Shown here one piece after another: positions 5,735 to 55,299 of a DNA stretch of 64,000 nucleotides. Position 1 is the first letter of the stretch; every line of letters starts with the position of its first letter. Under the pieces are notes generated by a model. It made no database searches. It saw only the letters and a list, made by a program, of their open reading frames with translations, and had not been told where the DNA came from. Source of the stretch: Pseudomonadales bacterium. GTDB taxonomy: Bacteria; Pseudomonadota; Gammaproteobacteria; Pseudomonadales; Azotimanducaceae. The translations under genes and the position numbers were made by a program. The stretch lies in the NCBI GenBank assembly GCA_022827905.1, contig JAJEIQ010000078.1, forward strand, positions 62,001-126,000, in the 5' to 3' direction.

Positions 5735-6037
5735 CTACACGACCGACAAGCCTTGCCCAGCAATCTCGTCCACCCGTTGCCGGGTGGCGGCCTTGTCCTC
5801 GAACCACTGCGCGTTAATGGCGGTGAATTCAGCCGTCTCCGACGGCACTTGGTCATCCGCAAAGATGGCGCCCACGGGACAGGCCGATTCGCAGGCGGCG
5901 CAGTCGATGCACTCATCCGGATGGACATAGCACATACGGTCATCGCCTTCGTCGAAGTAGATGCAATCCACCGGGCAGACTTCGATGCAGGATTGATCCT
6001 GCACGTCGATGCAGGCGCTGGTGATAACGAAAGTCAC
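5735..6037 (-). CDS. Ferredoxin (FdxA-like, two 4-Cys/3-Cys clusters)
   Basis: CIEVCPVDCIY and CIDCAACESACPVGAI motifs, 100 aa. Confidence 0.92.
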   Translation of the reverse strand: MTFVITSACIDVQDQSCIEVCPVDCIYFDEGDDRMCYVHPDECIDCAACESACPVGAIFADDQVPSETAEFTAINAQWFEDKAATRQRVDEIAGQGLSVV

Positions 6038-6140
6038 TGGAATTGGACGTTCCCTTCAGAAGCCGCATAGGCTAGCCAAATTGTCGTGCGTTGCCAATGG
6101 GCGGGGGTCTTGCGGTCGGGGGTCTCGTGCGACCCGTCAC

Positions 6141-6518
6141 TCAGGCTTTCGGTCCATCGAATGACTTGATGTGCTCATACCACCCGGACCCTTTGACCCG
6201 CAGGGGAATCCCGCCGAGCCGTTCGCCGGTTTCGAGGTGCTTCTTGCGACCGTCCCAAGCGTCGGGGTCGCGCTGCCATTCGTTGAGGACGCGCTCCGCT
6301 TCCTCATAGCTCGGCGCTTCAACCTCATAGAGCGAGAGGTACTCGGAAACAGTCTCCCCGTCCAAGTGCGGTCCGCTCAGCTTGAATACGCTGCCGCGAA
6401 TGAAGTTGGGGCACTTGGCGGTGTCCTCGATGTGCTGGTCAACGAACCACTCCTCGAAGGGCGCTTGGCTGGCGGCATCCGGTGGCTCGCAAAGGCCGAT
6501 TAGAACGAAACGGGGCAT
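6141..6518 (-). CDS. Small protein, possible EthD/dimeric alpha-beta barrel-like fold
   Basis: MPRFVLIGLCEPPDAASQAPFEEWFVDQHIEDTAKCPNF...; general resemblance to EthD-type proteins. Confidence 0.55.
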   Translation of the reverse strand: MPRFVLIGLCEPPDAASQAPFEEWFVDQHIEDTAKCPNFIRGSVFKLSGPHLDGETVSEYLSLYEVEAPSYEEAERVLNEWQRDPDAWDGRKKHLETGERLGGIPLRVKGSGWYEHIKSFDGPKA

Positions 6519-6634: not shown

Positions 6635-8071
6635 ATGGCCACGGGGTGCCCCTTTGCATTGGATATCTTTGCTGAACCGGAGGATCGCGCCAAAGATCCC
6701 GGCGCTCAATTCGACTTTCCCCTGATGCCCGAAGGCGAGGCCTATGACATGGGTCATGCGCCGGACGGCACGCCGCTATTCGATCCGCGCATCCTCCAAT
6801 CCGCTGAGTTCTTCCGCAATCCCTACCCTTACTACCGTATTCTGCGGGACCACTACCCGGTCTATCATGACCGGCTGCACAACACCTACTATGTCACCCG
6901 TTACGAGGACATCACCCGCTGCTACTTTGACGATGAGGGCTTCAACACCATCCCCAAGGGCAGCTCCAGCGGTGTGCTCGGCAATACCCAACTCGAGCTT
7001 TCCGGCGTGGAGCACCGGCGGCGGCGCAATCTCTACGGCCAGCACTTGGTCGGCCAGTCGCTCAAGAACCGCATTCCCGCGATTCAGCGCCAAGCACGGG
7101 AGATGATCGAGGCTTGGGACGGCGTCAATGATCCCGCTGTGGTGTCCGAGACCAACGGGGTGCGCACGGTGGAGTTGGGCATGGCCTTCGCCAACGAATT
7201 CCCCATTCGGGTGGTCTGCGAAGTGCTCGGCTTCCCCAAGGAGGCCCAGGATGACTTTTATTATTGGTACAACTCCATGATGTCCGGGCTGGGTGGTTCG
7301 GAGACCCATCAGCAGGGGCTGGAGGCTCGCCAGCACCTGGAGGACTACGTGGAGGGCATTGTCGAGGCGCGGCGCAAGCAGGCCACCTACCTGTACGACG
7401 AGGCCGGCAATCCGATTAGCAAGGACATCATCTCCAAGCTATGCGAAACGAAGGTGGATGGCGACTACCTCTCCACGGAGGAAATCACCTCCAACATTGC
7501 CTTGGTGGTTGGTGGCGGCGGCGAAACCACCCGGGGCGCCATCCTCAACATGTGGTACCTGCTGCTGCAGCACCCGGAGCAGTTCGAGGCGGTGTGCAAC
7601 GACGATTCGCTTTGGGACGCAGCATTCCACGAGACGCTGCGCCATTCCTCATCCATCGGTGGTCAGCCGCGCCACAACACCTACGACGTCGTGATGCACG
7701 GGGTGAAGGTGCCGGCGGGTTCGCTCATGGAGATGGTGGATTTCTCCGCCAATCACGACGAGCGGGTGTTCAAGGATCCGGAGACGTTCAACATCTTTCG
7801 CGATGACCTCTACTCCGGCAAGATTCTGCGCAGCGGCTACAACAAGAACGGACGCCGCAACCACATGGCCTTCGGGGTGGGTCCCCATCTATGTCCCGGC
7901 GCTTGGATCTCCCATCAGGAGGCGGTGGAAGGTTCTCGCATCCTATTGAAATACCTAAAAAACCCGCGTATCAACGTGGAACGAATGCCGAAGGACATCG
8001 ATGGCGAGAGCTTGCAGCCCCTTGGTATCGTGTCGGTACGCGAACTGCACCTGGATTATGAACTCGCCTGA
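6635..8071 (+). CDS. Cytochrome P450
   Basis: I-helix GGGGETT, ExxR HETLRHS, heme loop FGVGPHLCPG. Confidence 0.95.
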   Translation: MATGCPFALDIFAEPEDRAKDPGAQFDFPLMPEGEAYDMGHAPDGTPLFDPRILQSAEFFRNPYPYYRILRDHYPVYHDRLHNTYYVTRYEDITRCYFDDEGFNTIPKGSSSGVLGNTQLELSGVEHRRRRNLYGQHLVGQSLKNRIPAIQRQAREMIEAWDGVNDPAVVSETNGVRTVELGMAFANEFPIRVVCEVLGFPKEAQDDFYYWYNSMMSGLGGSETHQQGLEARQHLEDYVEGIVEARRKQATYLYDEAGNPISKDIISKLCETKVDGDYLSTEEITSNIALVVGGGGETTRGAILNMWYLLLQHPEQFEAVCNDDSLWDAAFHETLRHSSSIGGQPRHNTYDVVMHGVKVPAGSLMEMVDFSANHDERVFKDPETFNIFRDDLYSGKILRSGYNKNGRRNHMAFGVGPHLCPGAWISHQEAVEGSRILLKYLKNPRINVERMPKDIDGESLQPLGIVSVRELHLDYELA

Positions 8072-8095
8072 TTGGGCTGGCGAGGCACGGCGGCC

Positions 8096-9430
8096 ATGAC
8101 GGGGAGCGGCCTGACCGTTATTGGCGCCAATGGCGTGGCCATTCCGGAAGGCACCCGAGGCGATGCCGGATTTCGCACTTACGAAGTGTTTCAGCGGGAG
8201 CGGGTCGGCCAATCCACTGCCAAGATCAAACCGGCGCAGCTGGTCTCTCGGGAGTTTGCCGATGACCCCTATCCGCTGCTGGCCATCCTGCGTGAGAACT
8301 ACCCGTGCTACCGGGATTGGCTGAACAACTGCTTCTGGATCACCCGCTACAACGACGTCACCTCGGTGTTCACCGACGATGCCAATTTCGAGACCCGCTC
8401 CAAGGCTTGGCGACTGGGGATCGAAGGCTTCGGTAGGGACTTGCGGGCGGCGTTGCCGGTGCTGGCCGCCCAGGCAAACGCGTGGGACGCTAGCGTCGGG
8501 CGTTTGGCCGAGGCTGCCATCGCGGATTTTGCGGCGCGCGGTGAAGCCGACCTCGCCACCGAGTTCGCAGCGCGTCTGAACATGCAGCTTTGGTTGGCGA
8601 TGCTTGACGTTCCCGAAGAGAGCGCGCCGCAAGTCGCTGCCTTGCTGTGGCGGCTGCACCGAGGCGTGAGCTGGGATCCCCGCGTTCGCTTGGACGGCAT
8701 TGCGGCAGCACAGGAGCTAGCCGCCGAATTGGCGCCCTTGCTTGAGGTGCGGCGCCAAGTGCCGGGCGGCGATCTGATCTCGGCGGTGGCCGGCTTGGAG
8801 CTCGCCGATGGCCCGGCCCAGCCCAAGGACCTGGTGGCGACGCTGCTGGAAATGGACTTCGAGACCCTGCACGGCGCGCTCGCCAATCTGTGGCTGGCGC
8901 TGGTGACTGATGCGGAGGAGTTCGAAAAGGTGCGCGGCGACTTGTGGTACGTGAAGCTCGCGGTGTTGGAAACCTTCCGCCATTCCACGCCGGTGATCGC
9001 CGCGCCACGCTTTGCCCGGCACGAGGTGGAGCGGTTCGGTCGCCTGATTCCAAGGGGCGGGTTGCTGCTGTGCTCGGCGGCGGCTGCCAATCGAGATCCG
9101 CGCATCTTTGCCAACCCGGACCGCTTCATAGTCGGCCGCAAGGACATTTGCCACCGGGAGGCTAGGGGTCAGTACCGGGCGGACGGCCTGGCGATGGGCA
9201 TGACGCCGGGTCTAGGGCCACCCACCGAGCATCCAGCGGTGCCGGAAGATCGCCCCCGGTCACTGTACGCCCTGACCCGGGACGTCTTGGTCGCCGCATC
9301 CAAAACGCTGCTGGAAGCACTGGATGACGTCGCGTTGGCGGATGGCGTCGAACGGCCGCGCGCCAGCTGCCGCAGAATCGGGGAGATGCACGCCTGCTGG
9401 CGCCTGCCGGTGCGTTTTCGGACACGTTGA
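8096..9430 (+). CDS. Cytochrome P450 homologue lacking the heme-ligating Cys (putative pseudoenzyme)
   Basis: P450-like throughout with ETFRHS ExxR; heme loop reads LAMGMTPGLGPPTEHP (Cys position is Gly), I-helix MDFETLHG. Confidence 0.8.
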   Translation: MTGSGLTVIGANGVAIPEGTRGDAGFRTYEVFQRERVGQSTAKIKPAQLVSREFADDPYPLLAILRENYPCYRDWLNNCFWITRYNDVTSVFTDDANFETRSKAWRLGIEGFGRDLRAALPVLAAQANAWDASVGRLAEAAIADFAARGEADLATEFAARLNMQLWLAMLDVPEESAPQVAALLWRLHRGVSWDPRVRLDGIAAAQELAAELAPLLEVRRQVPGGDLISAVAGLELADGPAQPKDLVATLLEMDFETLHGALANLWLALVTDAEEFEKVRGDLWYVKLAVLETFRHSTPVIAAPRFARHEVERFGRLIPRGGLLLCSAAAANRDPRIFANPDRFIVGRKDICHREARGQYRADGLAMGMTPGLGPPTEHPAVPEDRPRSLYALTRDVLVAASKTLLEALDDVALADGVERPRASCRRIGEMHACWRLPVRFRTR

Positions 9431-43323: not shown

Positions 43324-43408
43324 GGAGAGGTGTCCGAGCGGTCGAAGGAGCACGCCTGGAAAGTGTGTATGCGGAAACGCATCGAGGGTTCGAATCCCTC
43401 CCTCTCCG
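43324..43408 (+). tRNA. tRNA-Ser (GGA)
   Basis: Acceptor GGAGAGG/CCTCTCC, anticodon loop CTGGAAA, long variable arm, GGTTCGAATCC T-loop. Confidence 0.95.
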
Positions 43409-43433
43409 CGCTCTTGCATAGCAAGACGGCTGA

Positions 43434-43574
43434 ACCCATGTCGCGACCAAAGGCAGCCATTGGCAGGTCACGCATCACGCCAAGCACGGACGGGTCACTG
43501 TGCTGCGTCTGAACAAGGATATTCCGCATGGCACAGTGGCTTCGATCTACCGACAGGCAGGCTGGATTCCTTGA
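43434..43574 (+). pseudogene. HicA toxin remnant, N-terminally truncated
   Basis: Frame reads THVATKGSHWQVTHHAKHGRVTVLRLNKDIPHGTVASIYRQAGWIP*, HicA-like but preceded by a stop and lacking the N-terminus. Confidence 0.72.
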
Positions 43575-43588
43575 GGAGGGCGAACTGA

Positions 43589-43955
43589 ATGCGCTGTGTA
43601 GCTTTCATCCATCGGGGCGACGCCGACTACGGCGTTAGCTTCCCCGACTTTCCGGGCTGCGTGTCGGTGGGGGATGCGATTGATGACGCTGTCCGTCTGA
43701 CGTGCGAAGCCTTTGCCTTTCACGTGGAGGGGCTTGGCGAGGATGGCGAGCCGATTCCGCCGCAGTGTTCGATGGATGCCACAAAGGCCGACCCTGAACT
43801 CGCCAACTGGTAGCGCGGCGGTGACATCGTGCTGCTCCACTGCTGATCGACTATGTTTGCCGTTGGTGAGTGACCGTCGCCCTTGACCACGGGTTGCTCA
43901 AAGCCATCGACGATGAGGCAAGGCAGCGCCGAAAGGTGTTTTCAGCGTTCTGACA
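43589..43955 (+). pseudogene. HicB antitoxin, N-terminal domain intact (43589-43813) then broken by stops/frameshift
   Basis: MRCVAFIHRGDADYGVSFPDFPGCVSVGDAIDDAV... then stop; downstream frame reads VTVALDHGLLKAIDDEARQRRKVFSAF, a HicB C-terminal-like segment. Confidence 0.68.
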
Positions 43956-44484
43956 CCCGGCGCGAGATTGGGGCTCGATATGAGGAGTAGTGTAGGGCTG
44001 ACTGGAATCTGTCTGTGCAAAGCCTTTGCTTTCGAATTCGAGGCCGGTTGCGAACTACGGACAAGGCGCGCCAGCGCCTAATGGTCGCTGGTGCGGCCCA
44101 TCGCTGCTGAGTAGATGCGCGACCGCTGTTGGACAAGCTTCAACGGTCGGATTGGTGGTGAATAGAGCAAGCCGCACCAGCTTCGGTCCTGAGGGGACCG
44201 CCAGTGGTAGGACAACGCCGACAGAGACGCTGCCCGGGAGTCAAGGCGCCTTGGCTTGACCAGATCGCGGGCAGATGGCACTGTCGTTCGGTCTGTCGAC
44301 GAAGAAGAACAACGATTGGGAATCGCGACAATGCTTCAACAAATTGATGGCGAATCCACGGAGCAATGCGAGTTCGAGTGGAAGTGCTCAAATGTTCGCA
44401 AACAATCCAAAGTGATACTTGATTCCTATTTGGGAAGTGGCACCCAGGTGTTGGGTCGGCAAGTGCTAGTTGGCGGAGTTGCAG

Positions 44485-45651
44485 ATGCCTGAACACGATC
44501 CAGCGAAGTTTGTGGCCTCGCTAGGCGCAAAGCTAGCCGCCCGTTCTCGACACGTGTGTATGTTGCTTGGTGCTGGCGTTGGGAAGGCTTGCGGGTTGCC
44601 CGACGTTCAAGAACTGCAAGACAGTGTTCTAGCAGACCTGTCGGACAGCCATCGTGCCGCCTTCCAGCGCGTACTGGAAAATCGAACTTTGGAAGAAGCG
44701 CTAAGCCGACTTCGTCGAATTTCAGCACTGCTTAGCGGTGACGAGACAGTGGACAATTTGACTGCAGCGTACGCACGAGAATTGGACGGTTTAGTGTGTA
44801 CTGCGATTGCCAAGGCACTGCAGATCGACGAGGCGGATAAGCTCGGTACGCGTTATCTGGCCGCGTGGGCAGCTCGCGCTAGTTATCGTCTGCCATTAGA
44901 GCTATTCACGGTCAGCTACGATCTCCTGCTAGAAACTGCTCTGGAGGAAGCTCGCGCAACGTATTTCGATGGATTTATGGGCAATCTAAACGCACGATTT
45001 CATACTGAGCTCGTGGAGTCGATGCCCGGAGACGATGAAGAATCGATGCCATCGTTCCTAATCAGACTCTGGAAGCTCCACGGTTCACTGAATTGGAAGT
45101 GGACCCAGAGTGGAGATCTGATCAGGATCGGACAGGCAGTGCGAGACGGCCTTGCGGCAGCTATCTATCCGTCGGACGCCAAATATGAGGAGTCTCGGCG
45201 GGTGCCGTTTGTGGTCCTTCAGGACAGATTGAGGAGATCGCTGAACCAGCCTGAGACACTCGTCTTGGTCAGCGGATATTCATTTGGTGACGAACACCTC
45301 AATGAAGTGCTGTTCGATTCAGCTCTTCGGAGAGAGCGATCCGAGTACATAGTGTTTTGCTACGATGGTATACCGAAGGTGCTTGTCGATCGTGCGTCGG
45401 AGGCGCCCAATTTGCAGGTGGTATCACCTCAAGAGGCTATTATCGGAGGGCTTCGGGGAAAGTGGGGAGAGCCGGAGGATGAGTTTTCAAACCTATGGAG
45501 TGACAAGGGGCTGGCCCTGTGCGACTTTAATCAATTGGCCAAATACCTTGCTAGGAGCACGGCTCGGGAGTACGGTCAAGGAGGATCGCTCTCCGGTGTG
45601 ATGAAGGAAGTTTTTGGAACTCTCGCACAAGCTGAAGTCTCAATCGAATGA
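44485..45651 (+). CDS. SIR2-like domain protein (defence NADase candidate)
   Basis: CMLLGAGVGKACGLPDV, IRLWKLHGSLNWKW, LVLVSGYSFGDEHLNEVLFDSAL. Confidence 0.85.
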   Translation: MPEHDPAKFVASLGAKLAARSRHVCMLLGAGVGKACGLPDVQELQDSVLADLSDSHRAAFQRVLENRTLEEALSRLRRISALLSGDETVDNLTAAYARELDGLVCTAIAKALQIDEADKLGTRYLAAWAARASYRLPLELFTVSYDLLLETALEEARATYFDGFMGNLNARFHTELVESMPGDDEESMPSFLIRLWKLHGSLNWKWTQSGDLIRIGQAVRDGLAAAIYPSDAKYEESRRVPFVVLQDRLRRSLNQPETLVLVSGYSFGDEHLNEVLFDSALRRERSEYIVFCYDGIPKVLVDRASEAPNLQVVSPQEAIIGGLRGKWGEPEDEFSNLWSDKGLALCDFNQLAKYLARSTAREYGQGGSLSGVMKEVFGTLAQAEVSIE

Positions 45652-47411
45652 AGTCGAGCGATCCAACGAGTATAGGGCGGGTCCAGCATGTTCTTGGAGC
45701 TACAGTTACGGTTGCTTTGGACCAGGATATTGCCGGAGTAGCGCCGATCTACCGTGGAGAGCTGCATCGAATCGGCCAAATCGGCTCGCTAGTACGCATA
45801 CCGCAGGGTTTGGTGGACTTGATTGCAACCGTGGAGCTTGTCGGCATCTCAGAACTAACGGGATCCTTGCAGCCCACTGAGTCAGTACAGCGTGATCAAC
45901 GGTGGTTGCAAGTACAACTATTGGGAGAGATCGACCGCGGCACTGGTCGCTTCCAACGTGGCGTGGGTGCCTATCCTGGACTGGATGACCCAGTGCACTT
46001 CGCTACTCCGGAACAACTGACAGCGATTTTTCCGGAGCCCGGTAGCGAACATCTCCGTCTGGGTCGTTTGGCCGCATCGGAGAACGTCCCGTTGTGCGTC
46101 GATTCATCTCGGTTCGTTGTTCGACACGCTGCGATTGTTGGATCAACCGGTTCAGGAAAGACCAGTGCTGTTGCCTCGTTGCTCCAAGGCTTCGTAAGGG
46201 GAGGTTGGGAAGCAGCCAACATTGTTGTCATCGACCCCCACGGCGAGTATGGACAGGCGCTTGCGGAAGCAGCCTGTGTCAAGAGTGTGCTTGCCCCTGG
46301 AGAGAGTGGTTTGAGCGTCCCGTTTTGGGCATTGGCGGCTAAAGATGTATTGCGAGTTTTTGGAGTAAGTGCCAACACCATGTTCATGGATCGCTACACG
46401 GAACTGGTGACAACCGCCCGTCGAAGATTCGTGGCCGAAGCAATCTGGCTCGATCTGGAAGAAGCGGCAGTAACAGCAGATACTCCTGTGCCATTTGATA
46501 TCCGAGAAGTGTGGCATAAACTGGATTCCGAAAACAACGAGACTGTCGCGTCTTCGAGCGATGGAGGTGAACCATGCGTGGAGGTACAGGGCTCTTCAGC
46601 GGAGTTGCGTCCCACCAAGTACAAAGCATATGGTCCTGGTAGTACGCCGCCCAACAAAGGGCCGTACCATGGCGCATACGGGACATCACCCGACCAATTG
46701 CGTCGAGGTCTGTTAGATCCGCAGCTTCGTTTTTTTCGAGGGCCTGAGGGCACCCCGGATGGCGATGACCCGTTGGTACGAGTGGTACAAGACTGGCTCG
46801 GCAGGGACAGTGCTGTTTCCGTGCTTGATTTTAGCGGGGTACCCAGTGTGGCGGCAGACTTGGCGGTGGGGTTAGTGCTAGACCTAATCTTCGAAGTCGC
46901 TGTTCGGTCAGAGCGAGACACCGTGGGCATCGGTCGCCCGAGACCGGTACTGGTTGTTTTGGAAGAAGCACATAGATATTTGGGAGGCGAGGCCAGTGAT
47001 CTGACGCGAAACTCTGCCAATCGCATAGCTAGGGAAGGAAGGAAGTACGGAGTAGGTCTTCTCCTCGTAACCCAACGGCCATCGGAACTGCCCGATACTG
47101 CTTTGGCGCAATGCGGTACGATCCTAGCGCTAAGGCTGTCCAACGCGGAAGATCAGGGTACAATCAGAGCTTCTCTGCCGGACATGATTTCAGGCTTAGC
47201 TTCAGTTTTGCCTAGCCTGCGCACAGGAGAGGGAATTGTTAGCGGAGAATCGGTAGTATTGCCTGCTCGCGTTGTACTCGACTTGCCCAAACCGCAGCCG
47301 GATGCGGCAGATCCGTCGCTGGCGCCTTGGCGTGAAGAGCCGAGTGTACCTGACGTCAGCTCTGCTCTAGCGGCATGGCGCGGAACGTTCGGAGGAACTA
47401 CTGATGATTAA
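45648..47411 (+). CDS. HerA-like (DUF87) ATPase
   Basis: AAIVGSTGSGKTSAVASLL Walker A, PVLVVLEEAHRYLGGEA Walker B, GLLLVTQRPSELPDTALAQCGTILALRLSNAEDQ; ATGA overlap with SIR2 gene. Confidence 0.92.
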   Translation: MKSSDPTSIGRVQHVLGATVTVALDQDIAGVAPIYRGELHRIGQIGSLVRIPQGLVDLIATVELVGISELTGSLQPTESVQRDQRWLQVQLLGEIDRGTGRFQRGVGAYPGLDDPVHFATPEQLTAIFPEPGSEHLRLGRLAASENVPLCVDSSRFVVRHAAIVGSTGSGKTSAVASLLQGFVRGGWEAANIVVIDPHGEYGQALAEAACVKSVLAPGESGLSVPFWALAAKDVLRVFGVSANTMFMDRYTELVTTARRRFVAEAIWLDLEEAAVTADTPVPFDIREVWHKLDSENNETVASSSDGGEPCVEVQGSSAELRPTKYKAYGPGSTPPNKGPYHGAYGTSPDQLRRGLLDPQLRFFRGPEGTPDGDDPLVRVVQDWLGRDSAVSVLDFSGVPSVAADLAVGLVLDLIFEVAVRSERDTVGIGRPRPVLVVLEEAHRYLGGEASDLTRNSANRIAREGRKYGVGLLLVTQRPSELPDTALAQCGTILALRLSNAEDQGTIRASLPDMISGLASVLPSLRTGEGIVSGESVVLPARVVLDLPKPQPDAADPSLAPWREEPSVPDVSSALAAWRGTFGGTTDD

Positions 47412-47625
47412 TTGGATTCCAGTGACCGGTTCTACCCGCATCGTTGCGGAAGCCTATGATCCCGACGCTCAAAGGATCTACGTAAGGTTTCCCAATGGCG
47501 TTGAATGGTGGTATGGCGCGTGTCCACCAGCAGTGTGGAAAGAGTTCACAGCTCCAGGTCAATCTCGGGGCAAGTACATTAGCCGTGTGCTGGATCACAA
47601 GCCGCATGGTCGGTGGGGTGGCTAG
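47404..47625 (+). CDS. KTSC-domain small protein
   Basis: 73 aa MINWIPVTGSTRIVAEAYDPDAQRIYVRFPNGVEWWYGACPPAVWKEFTAPGQSRGKYISRVL; 8 bp overlap with herA-like gene. Confidence 0.82.
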   Translation: MINWIPVTGSTRIVAEAYDPDAQRIYVRFPNGVEWWYGACPPAVWKEFTAPGQSRGKYISRVLDHKPHGRWGG

Positions 47626-47784
47626 ACCGGATGTTGCGGAAGTTGCCCGATGTCAGAGGGCTTGGATTCGACGCGGCTTGGTCTGACTGGCGTAAGCGGA
47701 TGGCTCTCTTAGGATGGCTGACGTACTTGTAGTCAAGGGCACTCCGCTGTTCTTCTACTAAGCTGGTGCAAAAGTGCAGGAACA

Positions 47785-48264
47785 ATGGGCGAGTTAAACT
47801 TATCTGGTTGGGACATTGTCGTCACGTTGGCGATATCAGTACTGGCAGCGTTCGTTGCCCAACGTCTCCAGAAGGCATACGGAGACAAGTTCAAACAAAG
47901 AGTGCAGAGCACATGGGAGGCCATGGCTCCCTACCTTACGTTGGTGGTTCTCTTCCTTGGTGCCGCTCTTTTGCAATCGGTGCTGCTTGCCTCGAAGTCG
48001 GGCAGCAACCAAACTGAAATTGCTTGTGTTGAAAGCTGCTCAGAGCTGGATAGAAGCAAAATAGCTCTTTGTCACCACGAAGCTCGGGCTGCTGGTCGGC
48101 AAGTCAGCCGTCGAAGCGTTGGTGAGCGGGAGGCCGATAGCTATTTTGAAGCCTGTGTAGCCGCTTTGGATTTCACTCTCAAGCGGACTGACTGCCGTAG
48201 CAATCTAGATGCATCAAAGGTTTGCATTCGGCTCCCGTCGTTGTCAGTTATGGCTGATCGCTAG
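47785..48264 (+). CDS. Small membrane protein of unknown function, two predicted TM helices
   Basis: 159 aa; IVVTLAISVLAAFVA and YLTLVVLFLGAALLQSVLLA hydrophobic segments. Confidence 0.6.
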   Translation: MGELNLSGWDIVVTLAISVLAAFVAQRLQKAYGDKFKQRVQSTWEAMAPYLTLVVLFLGAALLQSVLLASKSGSNQTEIACVESCSELDRSKIALCHHEARAAGRQVSRRSVGEREADSYFEACVAALDFTLKRTDCRSNLDASKVCIRLPSLSVMADR

Positions 48265-48272
48265 CACCTAAG

Positions 48273-48403
48273 GGAGACAGGGACACACACGAATTCAGTT
48301 CCACATCTGACATTGCAGTGAAGTCAAACCGAACAAGCGGGCGATTGCATAGCGGGCGAACGTCAACCAGTCGCCAACACACGAAAGGCTGAGCTACTTC
48401 ACC
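48273..48403 (+). repeat. Diverged direct repeat copy 1
   Basis: GACACACACGAATTC...CATCTGACA...GTCAAACCGA.CAAGC.GGCGAT.GCAT matches copy at 51372-51500 by eye. Confidence 0.7.
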
Positions 48404-48512
48404 GGAATTCGCAGCGAGCGGCCATGTTACAGGCCCGTTAGTGCAACCTCCTGCGACGGCTTTTGGTAATGACGTGCTGCCTGCCAGCCGATACCCAGTC
48501 ACCCGTGACGGG

Positions 48513-48556
48513 CGTGGGCTGGCGCTTCCGAAGTTCCCTTCGGGGCGAAGCCCACG
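48513..48556 (+). other. Hairpin-forming sequence of unknown role
   Basis: CGTGGGCT...CCGAAG-TTCC-CTTCGG...AGCCCACG. Confidence 0.5.
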
Positions 48557-48614
48557 GGTCCACTAGTTTGACTTCCATGTGTCAATGTCAATCGAAAATT
48601 GCAGGGAGCAGTTT

Positions 48615-48707
48615 TTATGTTGCCATTGACACGGGGCCATGCCACGACCTAGGCTCCGGTTCGAGCTGCCTCAGCCCCGACACGACGTTCGTGTCCACCA
48701 GTATCAC
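48615..48707 (-). pseudogene. Truncated PIN-domain toxin (FitB/VapC-like)
   Basis: VILVDTNVVSGLRQLEPEP then truncated after about 30 aa. Confidence 0.65.
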
Positions 48708-48720
48708 GTCGCGCCCGGAT

Positions 48721-48966
48721 TCAGTCGAAGGACGGGGGCTCGCGGGAGCCGCTCCGCGGACGCAGCTCCAAGCCCACACCGTTAGTTGGTCCGAAGTACA
48801 ACCGGATGATGCTTGCGAGGTCGCGCTTCTCCGCATTGGCCCCAACGGCATCGCCTGGAGTCAGCCGGGCCTCCTCCTCCTCCATGGATCGGCCGTTGCC
48901 GACCGCGCGCACGCGCAGCCGCGCCTTAACGTCGTTGTCGAGGTTCCGGATCGTGATACTCGCCAT
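48721..48966 (-). CDS. FitA/VapB-like ribbon-helix-helix antitoxin
   Basis: MASITIRNLDNDVKARLRVRAVGNGRSMEEEEARL...LASIIRLYFGPTNGVGLELRPRSGSREPPSFD. Confidence 0.75.
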   Translation of the reverse strand: MASITIRNLDNDVKARLRVRAVGNGRSMEEEEARLTPGDAVGANAEKRDLASIIRLYFGPTNGVGLELRPRSGSREPPSFD

Positions 48967-49207
48967 CGGCGCAAGCGTCTCTAAGTCAGAGCACCCCAAC
49001 GTACGTCCTGATTGCGATGCGATCAAGCGCCGAAACCGAGCGCTAGTGTCTTCACCGATTCGTGTGCTGCTTGGACTGTCGTGGATCAAAGCCTCGAGAA
49101 TTGGCCGGAGGCCGCAAGCTGAATCGGCGGGTCGCGCAATTGCCCCGAAGGAGTGCATGGGCATGTGTGTGCGAATTCGGTCAGCACACTGACGAGGAAA
49201 TGGGGTA

Positions 49208-50338
49208 GTGGCTGGAGTAGAATTCACCCCAGAGAAATTGGAGAAAAACATGCCGCCGAGAACCACGCTTTGGCCGCAGGATGAACAAACTCAGGGAAAA
49301 CACTTGGTGCTACGCTCTTACCTTGATGGGTGGTTCCCGATACTCGGATCGTGGAACAATCGCCTTCTGTTCATCGATGGTTTTGCCGGACCAGGTGAGT
49401 ACGACCATGGGGAACCCGGATCTCCAGTGATCGGACTCGACTGCGTTAAGCGATGCAAAATCGCAGGTGGATTGGAGGGCGTAGAGGTCGTATCTGTGTT
49501 CATAGAGTCTGACAAGGGAAGATTCAAACACCTTGAAAGCCTTATGAAAAAGCGCGAGCGAGAGGATGGGAAGCACGGTATCGAACACCAAGTGCTATAT
49601 GGAAGCTTCGACGATCACATGACGCTTTTACTCGACTATCTCGACCAGCAGAACCAGAATCTCGCACCGGCGTTTGTCATGATTGACCCATTCGGAGTCA
49701 AAGGAAGTCGCATGGGCCTCATCGAGAGGATCCTTGGCAATCCGAGGAGCGAGTGCATGATATCTTTCATGTACGAACCTATTCGACGATTTCAAAGTCG
49801 GCCGGAATTTGAGCAACCTTTAGATCAGCTGTTTGGAGATACGAGTTGGCGCGAGTGCTTGAACATGGAGGAAAAGGCGTCAAAGTCGTTTCTTCACGGT
49901 CTCTTTAGGAAACGCCTCAAAGCTTGCGGAGCTAAGCATGTCGTCCTATTTGAGGTTTGGCGCGAAAACAGACACATATACACAATCTACTTTGCTACAG
50001 GGCACGAAAAAGGGTGTGACTTGATGAAGCAGGCCATTTGGAAGGCAGACCCCAGCGGAGGCTATGCAGTACGGGGCTATGCAGGCCGTCATGGCGTGTT
50101 GTTCGGCGCGGACACGGAGCCTTTAGCCAAGCAGCTTCGCGACCATTTTGGCAATGCTCCAACACCAATTGAGGACATTGAGCAGTTTGTGATGAGCGAT
50201 GCCACCGTATTCCATAAAGGTCAATTGCGGCAAAAAACACTTGCCCGTCTAGAGAGAAAGGCCCGGATTTCCGTCCATCGCCCCCAAGGTAGCCGGGGAT
50301 TTCCATCCGGCCGTGGCATCACCATTCAGTTTTGCTGA
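49208..50338 (+). CDS. tcmP: Three-Cys-motif partner protein TcmP family
   Basis: WPQDEQTQGKHLVLRSYLDGWFPILGSWNNRLLFIDGFAGPGEYDHGEPGSPVIGL; next to a Gp37/Gp68-type gene. Confidence 0.85.
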   Translation: MAGVEFTPEKLEKNMPPRTTLWPQDEQTQGKHLVLRSYLDGWFPILGSWNNRLLFIDGFAGPGEYDHGEPGSPVIGLDCVKRCKIAGGLEGVEVVSVFIESDKGRFKHLESLMKKREREDGKHGIEHQVLYGSFDDHMTLLLDYLDQQNQNLAPAFVMIDPFGVKGSRMGLIERILGNPRSECMISFMYEPIRRFQSRPEFEQPLDQLFGDTSWRECLNMEEKASKSFLHGLFRKRLKACGAKHVVLFEVWRENRHIYTIYFATGHEKGCDLMKQAIWKADPSGGYAVRGYAGRHGVLFGADTEPLAKQLRDHFGNAPTPIEDIEQFVMSDATVFHKGQLRQKTLARLERKARISVHRPQGSRGFPSGRGITIQFC

Positions 50339-51148
50339 CGGGAATTCATCCCAAGTTTGCCCGTCCAGCGTTCGGCCGCTGGACTTCTTGCCAAACCGAC
50401 CCATCAGGGTTGAATAGCGGGAATCGGTTGAGCGGGGAATCAAATCGAGGGAGCTGGTCGGTGCCCAATCGCCCCACTGTTTGAAATGGAAAGGCACTTC
50501 ATGCTGCACACACTGGTCCCGAAGGCTGCAGAACCAATCGGGATCGGTGGGCCTAGCCTTGGTGCCGCCACTTTCGCCGCCAGCGATGATCCAGTGCAAG
50601 GTGCCTTGACTGAGCCAGCCGCTAAGGTCAACCGCGCCCAGCAGGGGTTCGCAGGATAGGAATCGAATGCGAGCCGGGTTTCTTTCCAAATGGGGCAACC
50701 GCTTCTCTGCCCAGCGCTGGTTTTCCGCCGTTGCGCCGAGCCAAACGTTGTCCGGCCAGCATTCCCCCCAAGGAGTTAACCGCTGAACTGCTTGGGGTCG
50801 CTTGGTAAGGAGCAGCCAATCCAATGAGGGCGTTTCCTCGATGAGGCGCCACAGTCGTTGACGCCACTTGGACAACTCCGTTCCCCACTCGAAGACATCG
50901 GCCATTGAGGCGCAGAACACGCGCGCCCTGTGGCCTTGTCGTTCTGCCTTGGCATTCCAGCGGTGGGGTTGCTCCCAATAGGAGTCGTTCAGAAACCGCC
51001 GTGGCCGTCCATTGCTCCAAATGTCGAGACCAAGCCGCTTTGCCCAGACTTCAGCGTAGCAGTGGTCGCAGGCCGGAGACACCTTGGTGCAGCCCCACCA
51101 CGGATTGAAGGTGTGGTCAGTCCATTCGATACGCGAGTTTTCTGCCAT
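50249..51148 (-). CDS. DUF5131 / phage Gp37-Gp68 family (three-Cys motif) protein
   Basis: MAENSRIEWTDHTFNPWWGCTKVSPACDHCYAEVWAKRLG...RPRRFLNDSYWEQPHRWN. Confidence 0.9.
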   Translation of the reverse strand: MAENSRIEWTDHTFNPWWGCTKVSPACDHCYAEVWAKRLGLDIWSNGRPRRFLNDSYWEQPHRWNAKAERQGHRARVFCASMADVFEWGTELSKWRQRLWRLIEETPSLDWLLLTKRPQAVQRLTPWGECWPDNVWLGATAENQRWAEKRLPHLERNPARIRFLSCEPLLGAVDLSGWLSQGTLHWIIAGGESGGTKARPTDPDWFCSLRDQCVQHEVPFHFKQWGDWAPTSSLDLIPRSTDSRYSTLMGRFGKKSSGRTLDGQTWDEFPSAKLNGDATAGWKSPATLGAMDGNPGLSL

Positions 51149-51371
51149 GGACCAGTACCTCACTGCCATATAGTGTTTTAATATACAGTATTCGACCTGT
51201 ATAGCGCCAGTTTTCCCGGTGGCCCGACGTGGACCCGTTTCCGTGAAGGCCTGCATCAAGACGCTTGCGATTGCGTGGCATGATAAGCGGACGCCCATGA
51301 AATCGCAAGGAGATTGGCCCATAAGCTATTGATTATTAAACAAACGATGCGCTATATCCTTGAGGCTATGA

Positions 51372-51500
51372 GGAGCTGGGACACACGCGAATTCAACCCC
51401 GCATCTGACACTAATGTGATGTCAAACCGAGCAAGCAGGCGATCGCATGGCTGGCGAACGCTAGCTGCTGGACAACACACCACAGGCTGATCTACTTCCC
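51372..51500 (+). repeat. Diverged direct repeat copy 2
   Basis: See copy at 48273-48403. Confidence 0.7.
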
Positions 51501-51706
51501 AGTGACGACTGTCTACTGGGCGGGCGGCTTCAACTAGGGGTGCTTCTCCTTCATCCCAACCTACGACCCTGTGGACCTGTTCGCTTACGAACCCGGCTAC
51601 AAGGGCTACACGTTCAACCGTGAAGCGCTCCGACGTGTTGTGGGCGCTTAAGGTTCAGACAATCGGCTAGCAGAAACTCGAGCAACCAGTCTCATGGCAT
51701 CGGATC

Positions 51707-53182
51707 CTAGATGCAGTCAAATTCGATCTCTATCGTTGACGACTCCCCGCTGGGAGTGTTGTGGATGATTCGATTGAGATCGCTTCCTTGCTGCTTCCAT
51801 AGCTTCCGCATCGCCCGACACGCCATCCGCATCCTGTTTTCTTTCGACTCGCCGACCACTCGGCGATGCAAGTCGCCCGAAACCACCGGGATGGAAGTGT
51901 GGCCGGCATTTCGAGCATTGCGAAGCAATTCGAGAAGTTCCTCGTCAAAGTCCCGCTGTGCAAAAGGGGGCGACGTGGCCGCGGCCGAATCGGTGCCCGT
52001 CGGATTCGGCCAGTCGAGGCCGTCGAGAAAGGACTTGGCGACCTTGCCGTGGAGACCGAAGGCGTTCTGAAGTCGCTCATTCAGCCATGCAAGTCCCTCG
52101 GCAGATAGATTAACCCCTGCCTGCTGCAGGTATGCGCGGCGGGGATTGATGTTCCCATGTCCGCGTGCTGAGTTGCGCTGGGTGGACGCGAACGAGTCCG
52201 CGTCGAGCGATTCCATTAGCGCGTTGAGCGACACGCCGTCTCCCACCGTGCCATCGACGAACTCGGCGTGGTGGACGCGCACATAGTAGGGCCAGTCAAG
52301 GACCCACTCGCGTAGTGCAATGTCATCAGCGGTCGGTTCGTCACGCCCGGGCTGATGCTCAAGTGCGATGGCACGGCCAAAGACTCGAATGTCCGGCTCG
52401 TCAGTCAGCCGAGCAATGAACATGACCGCGCCATCCTTGAGGGCTCTGGGCCACTTGGTCTTGGAATAGTTAAGTGTCCGATGGCAGCCCGACACCTGAA
52501 CTTCCTCCTGGATGGAAGTTGAGGTGGGGGCACGGTCTTTCGCAGTACCAAGGAATTTCACGAACGCTTGCGGGGCCTCCGAGAATATTGTCGGCGCCTC
52601 GGCTCTCGGTTGGTCGATGAAGCCCGCATCGGCTCCAAAGTCATCGAGTCCGGCTGGTGCGTGAGGTCGTCCCCCGGAGGCGAGATGGCGCTTGACCCTG
52701 CCATCCCACTCCTCCAGCCGATCGCACAAGAGATCGGTCCCCGCCCGCTGCCAGAGATCGTCAAAGTAGTCATGGCAGCTGGCGACGGCAGCCACGTCTT
52801 CCGTGGCCATGCCCAGTTCGCGGTTCCTGCCGAGCCCAGCCTCCGTCAGGTTGACGGAGGCGACAATCGCCCGGCTCGATCCAAAAAGGTAGAGCTTGGC
52901 GTGAAGCCCGCTGATTCCCCGGATGGCTGCGCCGGCATTCAGCAGCGCTCTCAACGCGTCGATATCGCTCACGCCTTCAGCAAAGTCCCGCAGGTTAAAT
53001 CGGGTTATGACCTGAATGCTCTCAGCTCGTGGGGAGAGAAGGCGGTCAATCGAGCGGCGCTTGATGAACGGGCACACAATCCGGAGCTTCGTGTGGTCTA
53101 AACGCAGGGCATCGCTCAACTCAGACGCCCAGTTGCGGTCTACCAATCGGAAAGTCACGTGACTAACTCCAAACTGCTGCAA
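51707..53182 (-). CDS. Phospholipase D-like domain protein (putative nuclease) with uncharacterised C-terminal half
   Basis: GLHAKLYLFGSSRAIVASVNLTEAGLGRNRELGM (HxK...N...E PLD pattern); 491 aa. Confidence 0.78.
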   Translation of the reverse strand: MQQFGVSHVTFRLVDRNWASELSDALRLDHTKLRIVCPFIKRRSIDRLLSPRAESIQVITRFNLRDFAEGVSDIDALRALLNAGAAIRGISGLHAKLYLFGSSRAIVASVNLTEAGLGRNRELGMATEDVAAVASCHDYFDDLWQRAGTDLLCDRLEEWDGRVKRHLASGGRPHAPAGLDDFGADAGFIDQPRAEAPTIFSEAPQAFVKFLGTAKDRAPTSTSIQEEVQVSGCHRTLNYSKTKWPRALKDGAVMFIARLTDEPDIRVFGRAIALEHQPGRDEPTADDIALREWVLDWPYYVRVHHAEFVDGTVGDGVSLNALMESLDADSFASTQRNSARGHGNINPRRAYLQQAGVNLSAEGLAWLNERLQNAFGLHGKVAKSFLDGLDWPNPTGTDSAAATSPPFAQRDFDEELLELLRNARNAGHTSIPVVSGDLHRRVVGESKENRMRMACRAMRKLWKQQGSDLNRIIHNTPSGESSTIEIEFDCI

Positions 53183-53563
53183 ATGGCCGATGCCGCTAGG
53201 TCATGGCGTGATCGACTATGGGAGGGCTGACTCAGGAGCCGGGTACTTTATCACCGTCAAAGCAATGCTGTTTGCACTTCGATCTGATCACTGAGTTTCA
53301 TCCTAGTGAGGCTGAGGCGATAGCATAGGAACGTAGAGGCCGTGGTGAATTCAGAATTGAAGAGCTTCAGCAATAGTGCAACTCGCCTATCGATACTTCT
53401 GGTCACGACAACTAGGCCCTCGCTACCGTGGTGTGAGCGTCCAGCCAACGCCAAAGTCGCCAAAGCATGGGTCTTGGGCTACCTCGTTGACTCCGGGCCG
53501 GACGACCCGCGATCACCCCGAAACTTGCCCTGACGCCACCAGTCCATCACACTACCGGCCAGA

Positions 53564-54541
53564 ATGAGCGATCCCATCCCCACCACGGTCGCGGACCAGC
53601 CGCCCCTCGACAATCAAGCCCCGGCTTCCCCGTCGCCCGGCGCGAACCGCAGCAGTGCGGTTCGCCAGCAGCACCTGATTCCGCCGTGCCCGTATCGTCG
53701 GCTCTCGGATTCCGCTTCTCGCGTTTCCGCAATTGTCGATCCCCTGCTGATCTGCGGGGACGCTGGGCGAGCGCTTCGCCTGCTGCCTTCTGAATCCATC
53801 CAGACCGTCGTTACGTCGCCGCCGTACTGGTCGCTGAGGGACTACCAAGTGCCCGATCAGATTGGCTGCGACGACAGCCTAGGCTCGTACGTCGAAAGCC
53901 TCGTCAGCGCTTTTGACGAACTGCGGCGTGTGCTTCGCCCTGACGGCACCGTTTGGCTCAACGTCGGCGATTCGTACACTTCGGGCAACAGGCGCTACCG
54001 AGCTCCGGATCGCAAGAATCGAGCGCGCGCCATGCAAGTCAGGCCGCGAACGCCCAAAGGGCTCAAACCCAAGGATCTGATCGGAGTCCCGTGGCGGCTC
54101 GCGTTCGCGCTGCAGGATGCTGGCTGGTGGGTTCGCAGCGAGGTCATTTGGCACAAGCCCAATGCGCACCCCGAGTCCGTGCGAGACCGGCCCACTAAGG
54201 CGCATGAGACCGTATTCCTGCTTTCGAAGGAGCAGGACTACTATTACGACGTCGCCGCCGTGACTGGCCCCAACGGTCGGCGGCTGCGAAACGTATGGGA
54301 CATTCCGACTGAGCCGCTGAAGCGGGCGAACGGTCAAGACGACGACCATCCCGCCATGATGCCCCTGTCGCTCGCCCGGCGGTGCGTTGCGGTCACGAGC
54401 AGAACGAACGATGTCGTGCTCGATCCGTATGCTGGCTCCGGCACAACGCTGCTAGCCGCTCAAGGGCTCGGTCGCCGGTGGGTCGGCATCGAACTCAACC
54501 CATCTTTCGTGGAGCTCATTGAACGACGGCTTGGCCTGTGA
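53564..54541 (+). CDS. Type II DNA methyltransferase, amino (N4-C/N6-A) class with motif IV before motif I
   Basis: VVTSPPYWSLRDYQ ... VLDPYAGSGTTLLAAQGLGRRWVGIELNPSF. Confidence 0.93.
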   Translation: MSDPIPTTVADQPPLDNQAPASPSPGANRSSAVRQQHLIPPCPYRRLSDSASRVSAIVDPLLICGDAGRALRLLPSESIQTVVTSPPYWSLRDYQVPDQIGCDDSLGSYVESLVSAFDELRRVLRPDGTVWLNVGDSYTSGNRRYRAPDRKNRARAMQVRPRTPKGLKPKDLIGVPWRLAFALQDAGWWVRSEVIWHKPNAHPESVRDRPTKAHETVFLLSKEQDYYYDVAAVTGPNGRRLRNVWDIPTEPLKRANGQDDDHPAMMPLSLARRCVAVTSRTNDVVLDPYAGSGTTLLAAQGLGRRWVGIELNPSFVELIERRLGL

Positions 54542-55299
54542 CGCTTGAGGAACTCAAGGCGAGACTCGATTCGTTCTCCCCGGCCAAGATCGCCTTCGTT
54601 GCTACGGTCGTCGAGTCGCTGTCTAACCCATCTCAGGCCAACATCCGCTCCCAAGGCACTTGGCTTACCGGGGTCCCTGAGTGGATCGAGTACTTCGGAC
54701 TCGCACTTTCGGTCCATCACGCAGCGACCACGGTTCCCCTTGGATTGACTTCGTTCGAGGCCGTGTTCCGCAATGCGTGCTCCCATGTTGGATGGCCTGT
54801 GACGCCACCCAGTTCGGCCACCCAGCGCTTTGTGGACCTCTCTGTGCGCGCCGGCTCCGGCCGTGCGAGGCACCTTTCGTTGAAGTCCACCGCTGCCAAG
54901 GGGCTTTCTCCAACGACCGTTCACATTTCGAAGCTCACCGAAGCGGCGTGGATACAGGACACTCGCACGCCCGCGGCTCGACGGCAGGCCACGCTTGAGC
55001 TCTTCGCAGCCTACCAAGGTGTCGTGACGTCCATACTCATGCTCCGCGCCTTCCGTGCGGAAGAGGATGACGAGGCTCCGCGACTCTATCAGCTCGTCGA
55101 GATACCCGGAGGGCTGTTCGACTCGATCCAGCACGAGCCGCTTGCCGCCTTCCAGAGCGATGCACCCGTCATTCCGTGCAGGGATGCCGACGGGCAGACA
55201 ATCGCCCGGGTCGCGTTGGACCGTTCCGATGCGAAGATCACGGTGCGCAGCATCCAACTTGATGCCTGCACGGTGCACGCCGAGTGGGCTCGGGACTAG
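54538..55299 (+). CDS. Putative type II restriction endonuclease, SmaI-like
   Basis: 253 aa; ATGA-type overlap with methyltransferase; ARHLSLKSTAAKGLSPTTVHISKLTEAAWI, YQLVEIPGGLFDSIQ, ITVRSIQLDACTVHAEW resemble R.SmaI as I recall it. Confidence 0.72.
   Translation: MTLEELKARLDSFSPAKIAFVATVVESLSNPSQANIRSQGTWLTGVPEWIEYFGLALSVHHAATTVPLGLTSFEAVFRNACSHVGWPVTPPSSATQRFVDLSVRAGSGRARHLSLKSTAAKGLSPTTVHISKLTEAAWIQDTRTPAARRQATLELFAAYQGVVTSILMLRAFRAEEDDEAPRLYQLVEIPGGLFDSIQHEPLAAFQSDAPVIPCRDADGQTIARVALDRSDAKITVRSIQLDACTVHAEWARD

Follow-up and report, generated by a model that had tools for sequence, protein, structure and literature searches.

The 64,000-nucleotide stretch of Pseudomonadales DNA analysed here, which we call the window, holds a SIR2-like gene, a gene for a HerA-like ATPase and a small KTSC-domain gene in close succession, and the question it raises is whether the third gene belongs to the SIR2-HerA module and, if so, in what capacity. 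SIR2-HerA pairs have been described as two-gene antiphage NADase systems. The original prediction read the three ORFs as one co-translated operon and suggested that the KTSC protein might be a sensor, an inhibitor or a nucleic acid-binding accessory of a three-component variant. The layout was confirmed to the base: the operon spans 44485-47625, the SIR2 and HerA ORFs share 4 bp (ATGA), and the HerA and KTSC ORFs share 8 bp.

The gene order is that of SIR2-HerA systems, with the SIR2-like gene immediately 5′ of the HerA/FtsK-type ATPase gene (Table 1) and the sequence ggcggag standing before the SIR2 ATG. The SIR2 ORF matches PF13289 (SIR2_2; E = 2.8e-12) and the PADLOC SIR2 model (E = 5e-99), and the HerA ORF matches PF01935 (DUF87/HerA; E = 1.6e-27) and the PADLOC HerA model PDLC04105 (E = 4e-130), with an intact Walker A motif (GSTGSGKT) and the pair Glu439-Glu440, all at columns that are invariant in the alignment. 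The KTSC gene is preceded by a Shine-Dalgarno sequence, GGAGG, 8 nt 5′ of its ATG and within the 3′ end of herA. It is the sole PF13619 match in this 4.4-Mb genome, and its product had no match among the PADLOC and NCBIfam models. The PF13619 score of 26.6 bits is slightly above the curated cut-off of 25, and the AF2 model (pLDDT 91.5) superposes in Foldseek on the KTSC crystal structures 7x8c and 4rgi with TM 0.79-0.83, so that both curated score and fold place the protein in this family. Judged by pN/pS against the two nearest relatives, KTSC is under purifying selection (0.16-0.23), the corresponding values being 0.16-0.19 for HerA and 0.22-0.27 for SIR2.

Table 1. Genes of the operon and the substituted SIR2 codon, in window coordinates.
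Feature	Positions	Strand	Length	Basis
SIR2-family NADase-like effector gene	44485..45651	+	388 aa	Pfam/PADLOC, PDB 8w9l E=8e-41
HerA/FtsK-type hexameric ATPase gene	45648..47411	+	587 aa	Pfam/PADLOC, tree
KTSC-domain gene, split-gene counterpart of the C-terminal KTSC domain of PDB 8wiv HerA	47404..47625	+	73 aa	
Codon AGC, Ser144 at the catalytic Asn position	44914..44916	+		Aligned with N168 of E. coli chain 8j4u

When HerA loci were collected from public genomes, plasmids and prophage contigs, KTSC turned out to accompany every HerA of one clade (42/42 loci, some of them near-duplicates, namely L078/L079/L080 and L082/L084), as the next gene in 40 loci and in frame with HerA in two. Outside this clade, none of 82 loci, each with at least 400 bp of downstream sequence, has KTSC behind HerA. 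The claim that KTSC is a true third member is thereby upheld, and the survey of HerA neighbourhoods, which had been proposed as the place where a merely sporadic association would come to light, gave the opposite outcome. An additional order-level sample yielded three more clade loci, each with both KTSC and SIR2. SIR2 is present at every clade locus whose upstream region was included, and an endoDNase in its place was seen at none of the loci in the clade survey. In the next-gene loci the KTSC start lies between -20 and +26 bp from the HerA stop, leaving aside L033, whose HerA is frameshifted and whose distance was taken from the first piece. The frameshift in this locus (7350-7410) breaks the HerA of a relative that is 77% identical to the window protein, and it reflects either a mistake in assembly or a pseudogenised herA.

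We used 15 KTSC-linked loci to build a HerA profile, and scoring every collected locus with it gave a sharply bimodal distribution: KTSC is present at each of the 39 loci that exceed 420 bits, and no locus under 405 bits has a KTSC gene adjoining HerA. One locus of far lower score, L039, in which a remnant of the HerA C-terminus precedes the KTSC gene, was placed in neither group. This locus, from a Rhodococcus qingshengii plasmid, has its KTSC gene (5789-6216; 62% identical) after that short remnant and represents a decayed system. Since the sequences behind this profile were themselves KTSC-linked, to argue from the score gap alone would be circular, and the trees serve as the independent test. 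They recover the KTSC-linked HerA proteins as one clade with a single change, supported by 99% SH-aLRT in the alignment of 115 rows and by 100/99 in that of 47 rows, and the window HerA falls inside this KTSC-type (8wiv) clade with 100/99 support.

Several simpler accounts of the association were considered. Chance adjacency was rejected: the 399 genomes of the phylum that were searched for PF13619 contain 71 KTSC genes, of which 8 adjoin a clade HerA and 63 lie away from HerA, yet each clade HerA has a KTSC adjoining or fused to it. Since many genomes carry KTSC away from HerA, the domain has other uses as well. That the gene is an oddity of the window alone was rejected by the relatives with KTSC beside HerA. 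That KTSC follows SIR2 rather than HerA is not favoured, the KTSC distances correlating with those of HerA at r = 0.79 (Mantel p = 0.0005; r = 0.61 without the window lineage) and with those of SIR2 at 0.75; the correlation between SIR2 and HerA (0.89) is tighter than that between KTSC and HerA.

The role of KTSC is best approached through the natural fusions and the solved structures. The closest HerA in the PDB is 8wiv (696 aa; E = 1.6e-97), a member of the KTSC clade, in which a KTSC domain makes up the last 69 residues (628-696; E = 6e-27); a KTSC search of PDB chains gave strong scores only for 8wiv, 7x8c and 4rgi. Locus L083 encodes an intact in-frame HerA-KTSC fusion of 681 aa, which 8wiv matches over its full length (E = 3e-195). 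In the second in-frame locus, L064, HerA is interrupted by an IS3-type element, and this fused ORF was treated as weak evidence. When 8wiv is added to the tree it nests among split-gene members (100/100), and the L083 and 8wiv fusions come out as two separate events, a single origin being found in 0% of the bootstrap trees. The window KTSC model also superposes on the KTSC part of the better HerA chains of 8wiv, 8wj3, 8wld and 8wof (TM 0.76-0.80), of which the first two entries contain HerA alone and the last two the SIR2-HerA complex. Because Foldseek compares coordinates, the domain is resolved, and therefore ordered, in both kinds of entry; several HerA chains in the same entries are without visible KTSC. 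The AF2 model of L083 has a linker of pLDDT below 50 and agrees with 8wld and 8wiv to 3.5-4 Å rmsd over the core only, as against 25 Å over the full length. Since the linker is disordered in the model and its placement of KTSC disagrees with the cryo-EM chains, we claim no particular interface between KTSC and HerA. The PDB titles of this series name a SIR2/HerA antiphage complex. We take the source of 8w9l, 8wiv, 8wj3, 8wk0, 8wld, 8woc, 8wod and 8wof to be Paenibacillus sp. 453MF as studied by Liao et al. in 2024 (NAR 52:11336), whose abstract reportedly speaks of a unique C-terminal extension that stabilises a split spiral.

Independent fusions to HerA, at least two in number, together with the ordered position in the maps, point to a structural subunit of the HerA ring. 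The window operon is most likely the split-gene form of a known SIR2-HerA type with KTSC as a dedicated ring subunit, and we consider it likely that its three genes form an antiphage module of the KTSC type, in which KTSC is a separately encoded C-terminal domain or ring subunit of HerA. What is observed is the composition of the operon, the constancy of KTSC across the clade, its fusion to HerA, its fold and its ordered position within the solved complex; that KTSC acts in the assembly or stability of the HerA ring is what we infer. HerA would be the hexameric motor, and SIR2 would form an NAD-cleaving effector layer, possibly a nuclease too. KTSC would pack onto the HerA ring so that the ring assembles or stays closed, a role that would parallel the C-terminal hook of DUF4297-HerA, which strengthens neighbouring subunits (PMC11291478); according to a review, Liao et al. 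(2024) found no hook of the DUF4297-HerA kind in SIR2-HerA (PMC12198126). The HerA-KTSC ring may then recruit SIR2 and switch it on, and with translational coupling the output of KTSC would match that of HerA. Against the view of KTSC as a HerA subunit it counts that other SIR2-HerA families work without KTSC, that the domain has other uses, that several HerA chains show no KTSC, and that the correlation of distances weakens once the window lineage is removed.

In the window the effector itself is questionable. Among 40 SIR2 homologues of the clade the catalytic Asn is kept in 39, including both closest relatives, and is Ser in the window copy only, where Ser144 is encoded by a codon one base away from an Asn codon; the conserved GAG, Asp146 and His199 are retained. 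In Vibrio cholerae SIR2, the substitutions N168A and H227A each abolish immunity (PMC11559045). While descent of the window protein from the SIR2-HerA family is secure, its effector is probably impaired, on the evidence of this residue, unless Ser can stand in for Asn or the base itself is wrong, and that the window copy is an active NADase, as the description of such pairs would lead one to expect, is doubtful. The module in this genome may accordingly be on its way to decay or depend on some other activity. A decayed or repurposed module without effective NADase, kept passively or acting through a SIR2 nuclease or HerA activity, would concern the window copy only and is compatible with KTSC as a HerA subunit. 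The near-universal Asn of the clade and the V. cholerae N168A phenotype speak for it. All three ORFs are open, however, constraint remains overall as the SIR2 pN/pS indicates, Ser might retain partial activity, and a single-base change in an 81-contig genome could be an assembly or sequencing error. We put this account at slightly less than an even chance.

Other roles for KTSC have been weighed against the same observations. As a subunit that senses the trigger or binds nucleic acid, it would detect phage DNA or RNA, or a DNA end, and gate HerA-SIR2. One paper describes the domain as DNA-binding in its coupling with HerA (PMC9503650), and another as an RNA-binding domain in lysyl-tRNA synthetase (PMC7824862). 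Within the clade KTSC diverges faster than HerA, as a sensor might, window-type KTSC sharing about 19-26% identity with the other clade members, compared with 33-38% for HerA. But fast divergence equally fits a small structural subunit, and the domain is ordered with and without SIR2, which suggests a constitutive part, so that we think such a sensor unlikely. We give still less probability to KTSC as the activation switch of the clade, a dedicated adaptor through which a signal of infection would be read on the HerA ring and SIR2 licensed. The clade would then be a mechanistically distinct three-component type spanning bacteria and archaea, and in the window KTSC would drive a SIR2 effector that is not an NADase. 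That KTSC restrains SIR2 or HerA, as an inhibitor or an antitoxin-like safety catch, is suggested by a small, downstream, translationally coupled gene as in many toxin-antitoxin modules. This is very improbable given that KTSC is fused in cis to HerA in two lineages, the solved complex included, that it follows HerA rather than SIR2, and that it is absent from the 82 HerA loci outside the clade, many of which have SIR2. The free sensor, inhibitor or nucleic acid-binding accessory of the original prediction is thus not supported as stated, since fusions to HerA have arisen in two or more lineages and KTSC is ordered in the solved complex, and we retain the HerA-ring subunit as the preferred role.

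Among known systems, the 8wiv-series complex is the closest. It shares with the window the HerA clade, a SIR2 with homology along most of the protein (E = 8e-41) and a KTSC domain that goes with HerA. However, its KTSC is part of the HerA chain, while the window encodes KTSC in a gene of its own that overlaps herA; its SIR2 has the catalytic Asn where the window protein has Ser; and the two HerA proteins belong to different deep sub-branches of the clade. Nezha and the E. coli and V. cholerae SIR2-HerA systems (PDB 8su9, 8sub; PMC11559045) have the same SIR2 and HerA core, and their active-site residues N168 and H227 align with Ser144 and His199 of the window protein, but their HerA (610 aa) is of another subfamily, the window HerA matching it at E = 5e-24 as compared with 1.6e-97 for 8wiv. 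DUF4297-HerA (PMC11291478; PDB 8xau, 8ziq, 9c1m) likewise combines a HerA hexamer and an effector into a supramolecular complex, with a PD-(D/E)xK nuclease as effector and a C-terminal hook where the window type has KTSC. In a single sentence that gives an unpublished observation, Iyer, Burroughs and Aravind (2022, PMC9503650) mention HerA coupled with a KTSC protein, described as DNA-binding, and with an endoDNase that takes the place of the sirtuin; this too is a conflict operon with HerA and KTSC, whereas the window operon contains no nuclease gene and has SIR2 upstream instead of the endoDNase. Besides this paper, only jumbo-phage work names both KTSC and HerA within the literature searched. 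SIR2-HerA and a solved member with fused KTSC are therefore already known, and what appears new, within that literature, is the constancy of KTSC as the third component throughout one SIR2-HerA clade, in which it is usually a gene of its own and has been fused to HerA at least twice. The literature and detection models searched treat SIR2-HerA as two genes, while this branch has three parts. If KTSC is needed, two-gene clones of split-gene members miss a piece that the solved complex carries within its HerA, and negative results from such clones would mislead. A small, widespread and poorly understood domain also gains a concrete, testable job.

The deep sub-branch of the window includes two gammaproteobacterial MAGs (HerA identity 82% and 77%) and plasmids of Methylocystis (68%), Paraburkholderia (67%) and the archaeon Natrinema zhouii (59%), and among the remaining clade members are rhizobial, roseobacter, enterobacterial and Pseudoalteromonas plasmids and prophage-like contigs. 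Bacillota and archaea were represented in the survey by plasmids, prophage contigs and PDB entries only. A near-identical copy of the E. coli operon of the clade was found on one E. coli plasmid (strain C5) among 5,426 genomes. In Natrinema zhouii (L036) an ADP-ribosylglycohydrolase-family gene, annotated in two pieces (7762-8854), follows the KTSC gene, and its product could reverse ADP-ribosylation by the SIR2 system.

The surroundings of the operon in the window show further features. A low-GC island (43324-53600; GC 0.52-0.62, compared with 0.65-0.68 outside) abuts a tRNA-Ser(GGA) gene at 43324-43409, has a HicB-like first gene (43589-43813), and looks like a tRNA-side defence island. A 121-nt direct repeat (48280-48400 and 51378-51498, 79% identical) surrounds a pair of converging genes at 49208-51322, tcmP (three-Cys-motif partner) and a DUF5131 gene, which overlap by 90 bp at their 3′ ends and match the PADLOC candidate systems PDC-M30/M41. 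A 491-aa PLD-domain protein of DrmC type is encoded at 51707-53182, apparently without other DISARM genes nearby, and at 53564-55299 an N6/N4 DNA methylase gene is followed by an overlapping gene for a SmaI-like restriction enzyme.
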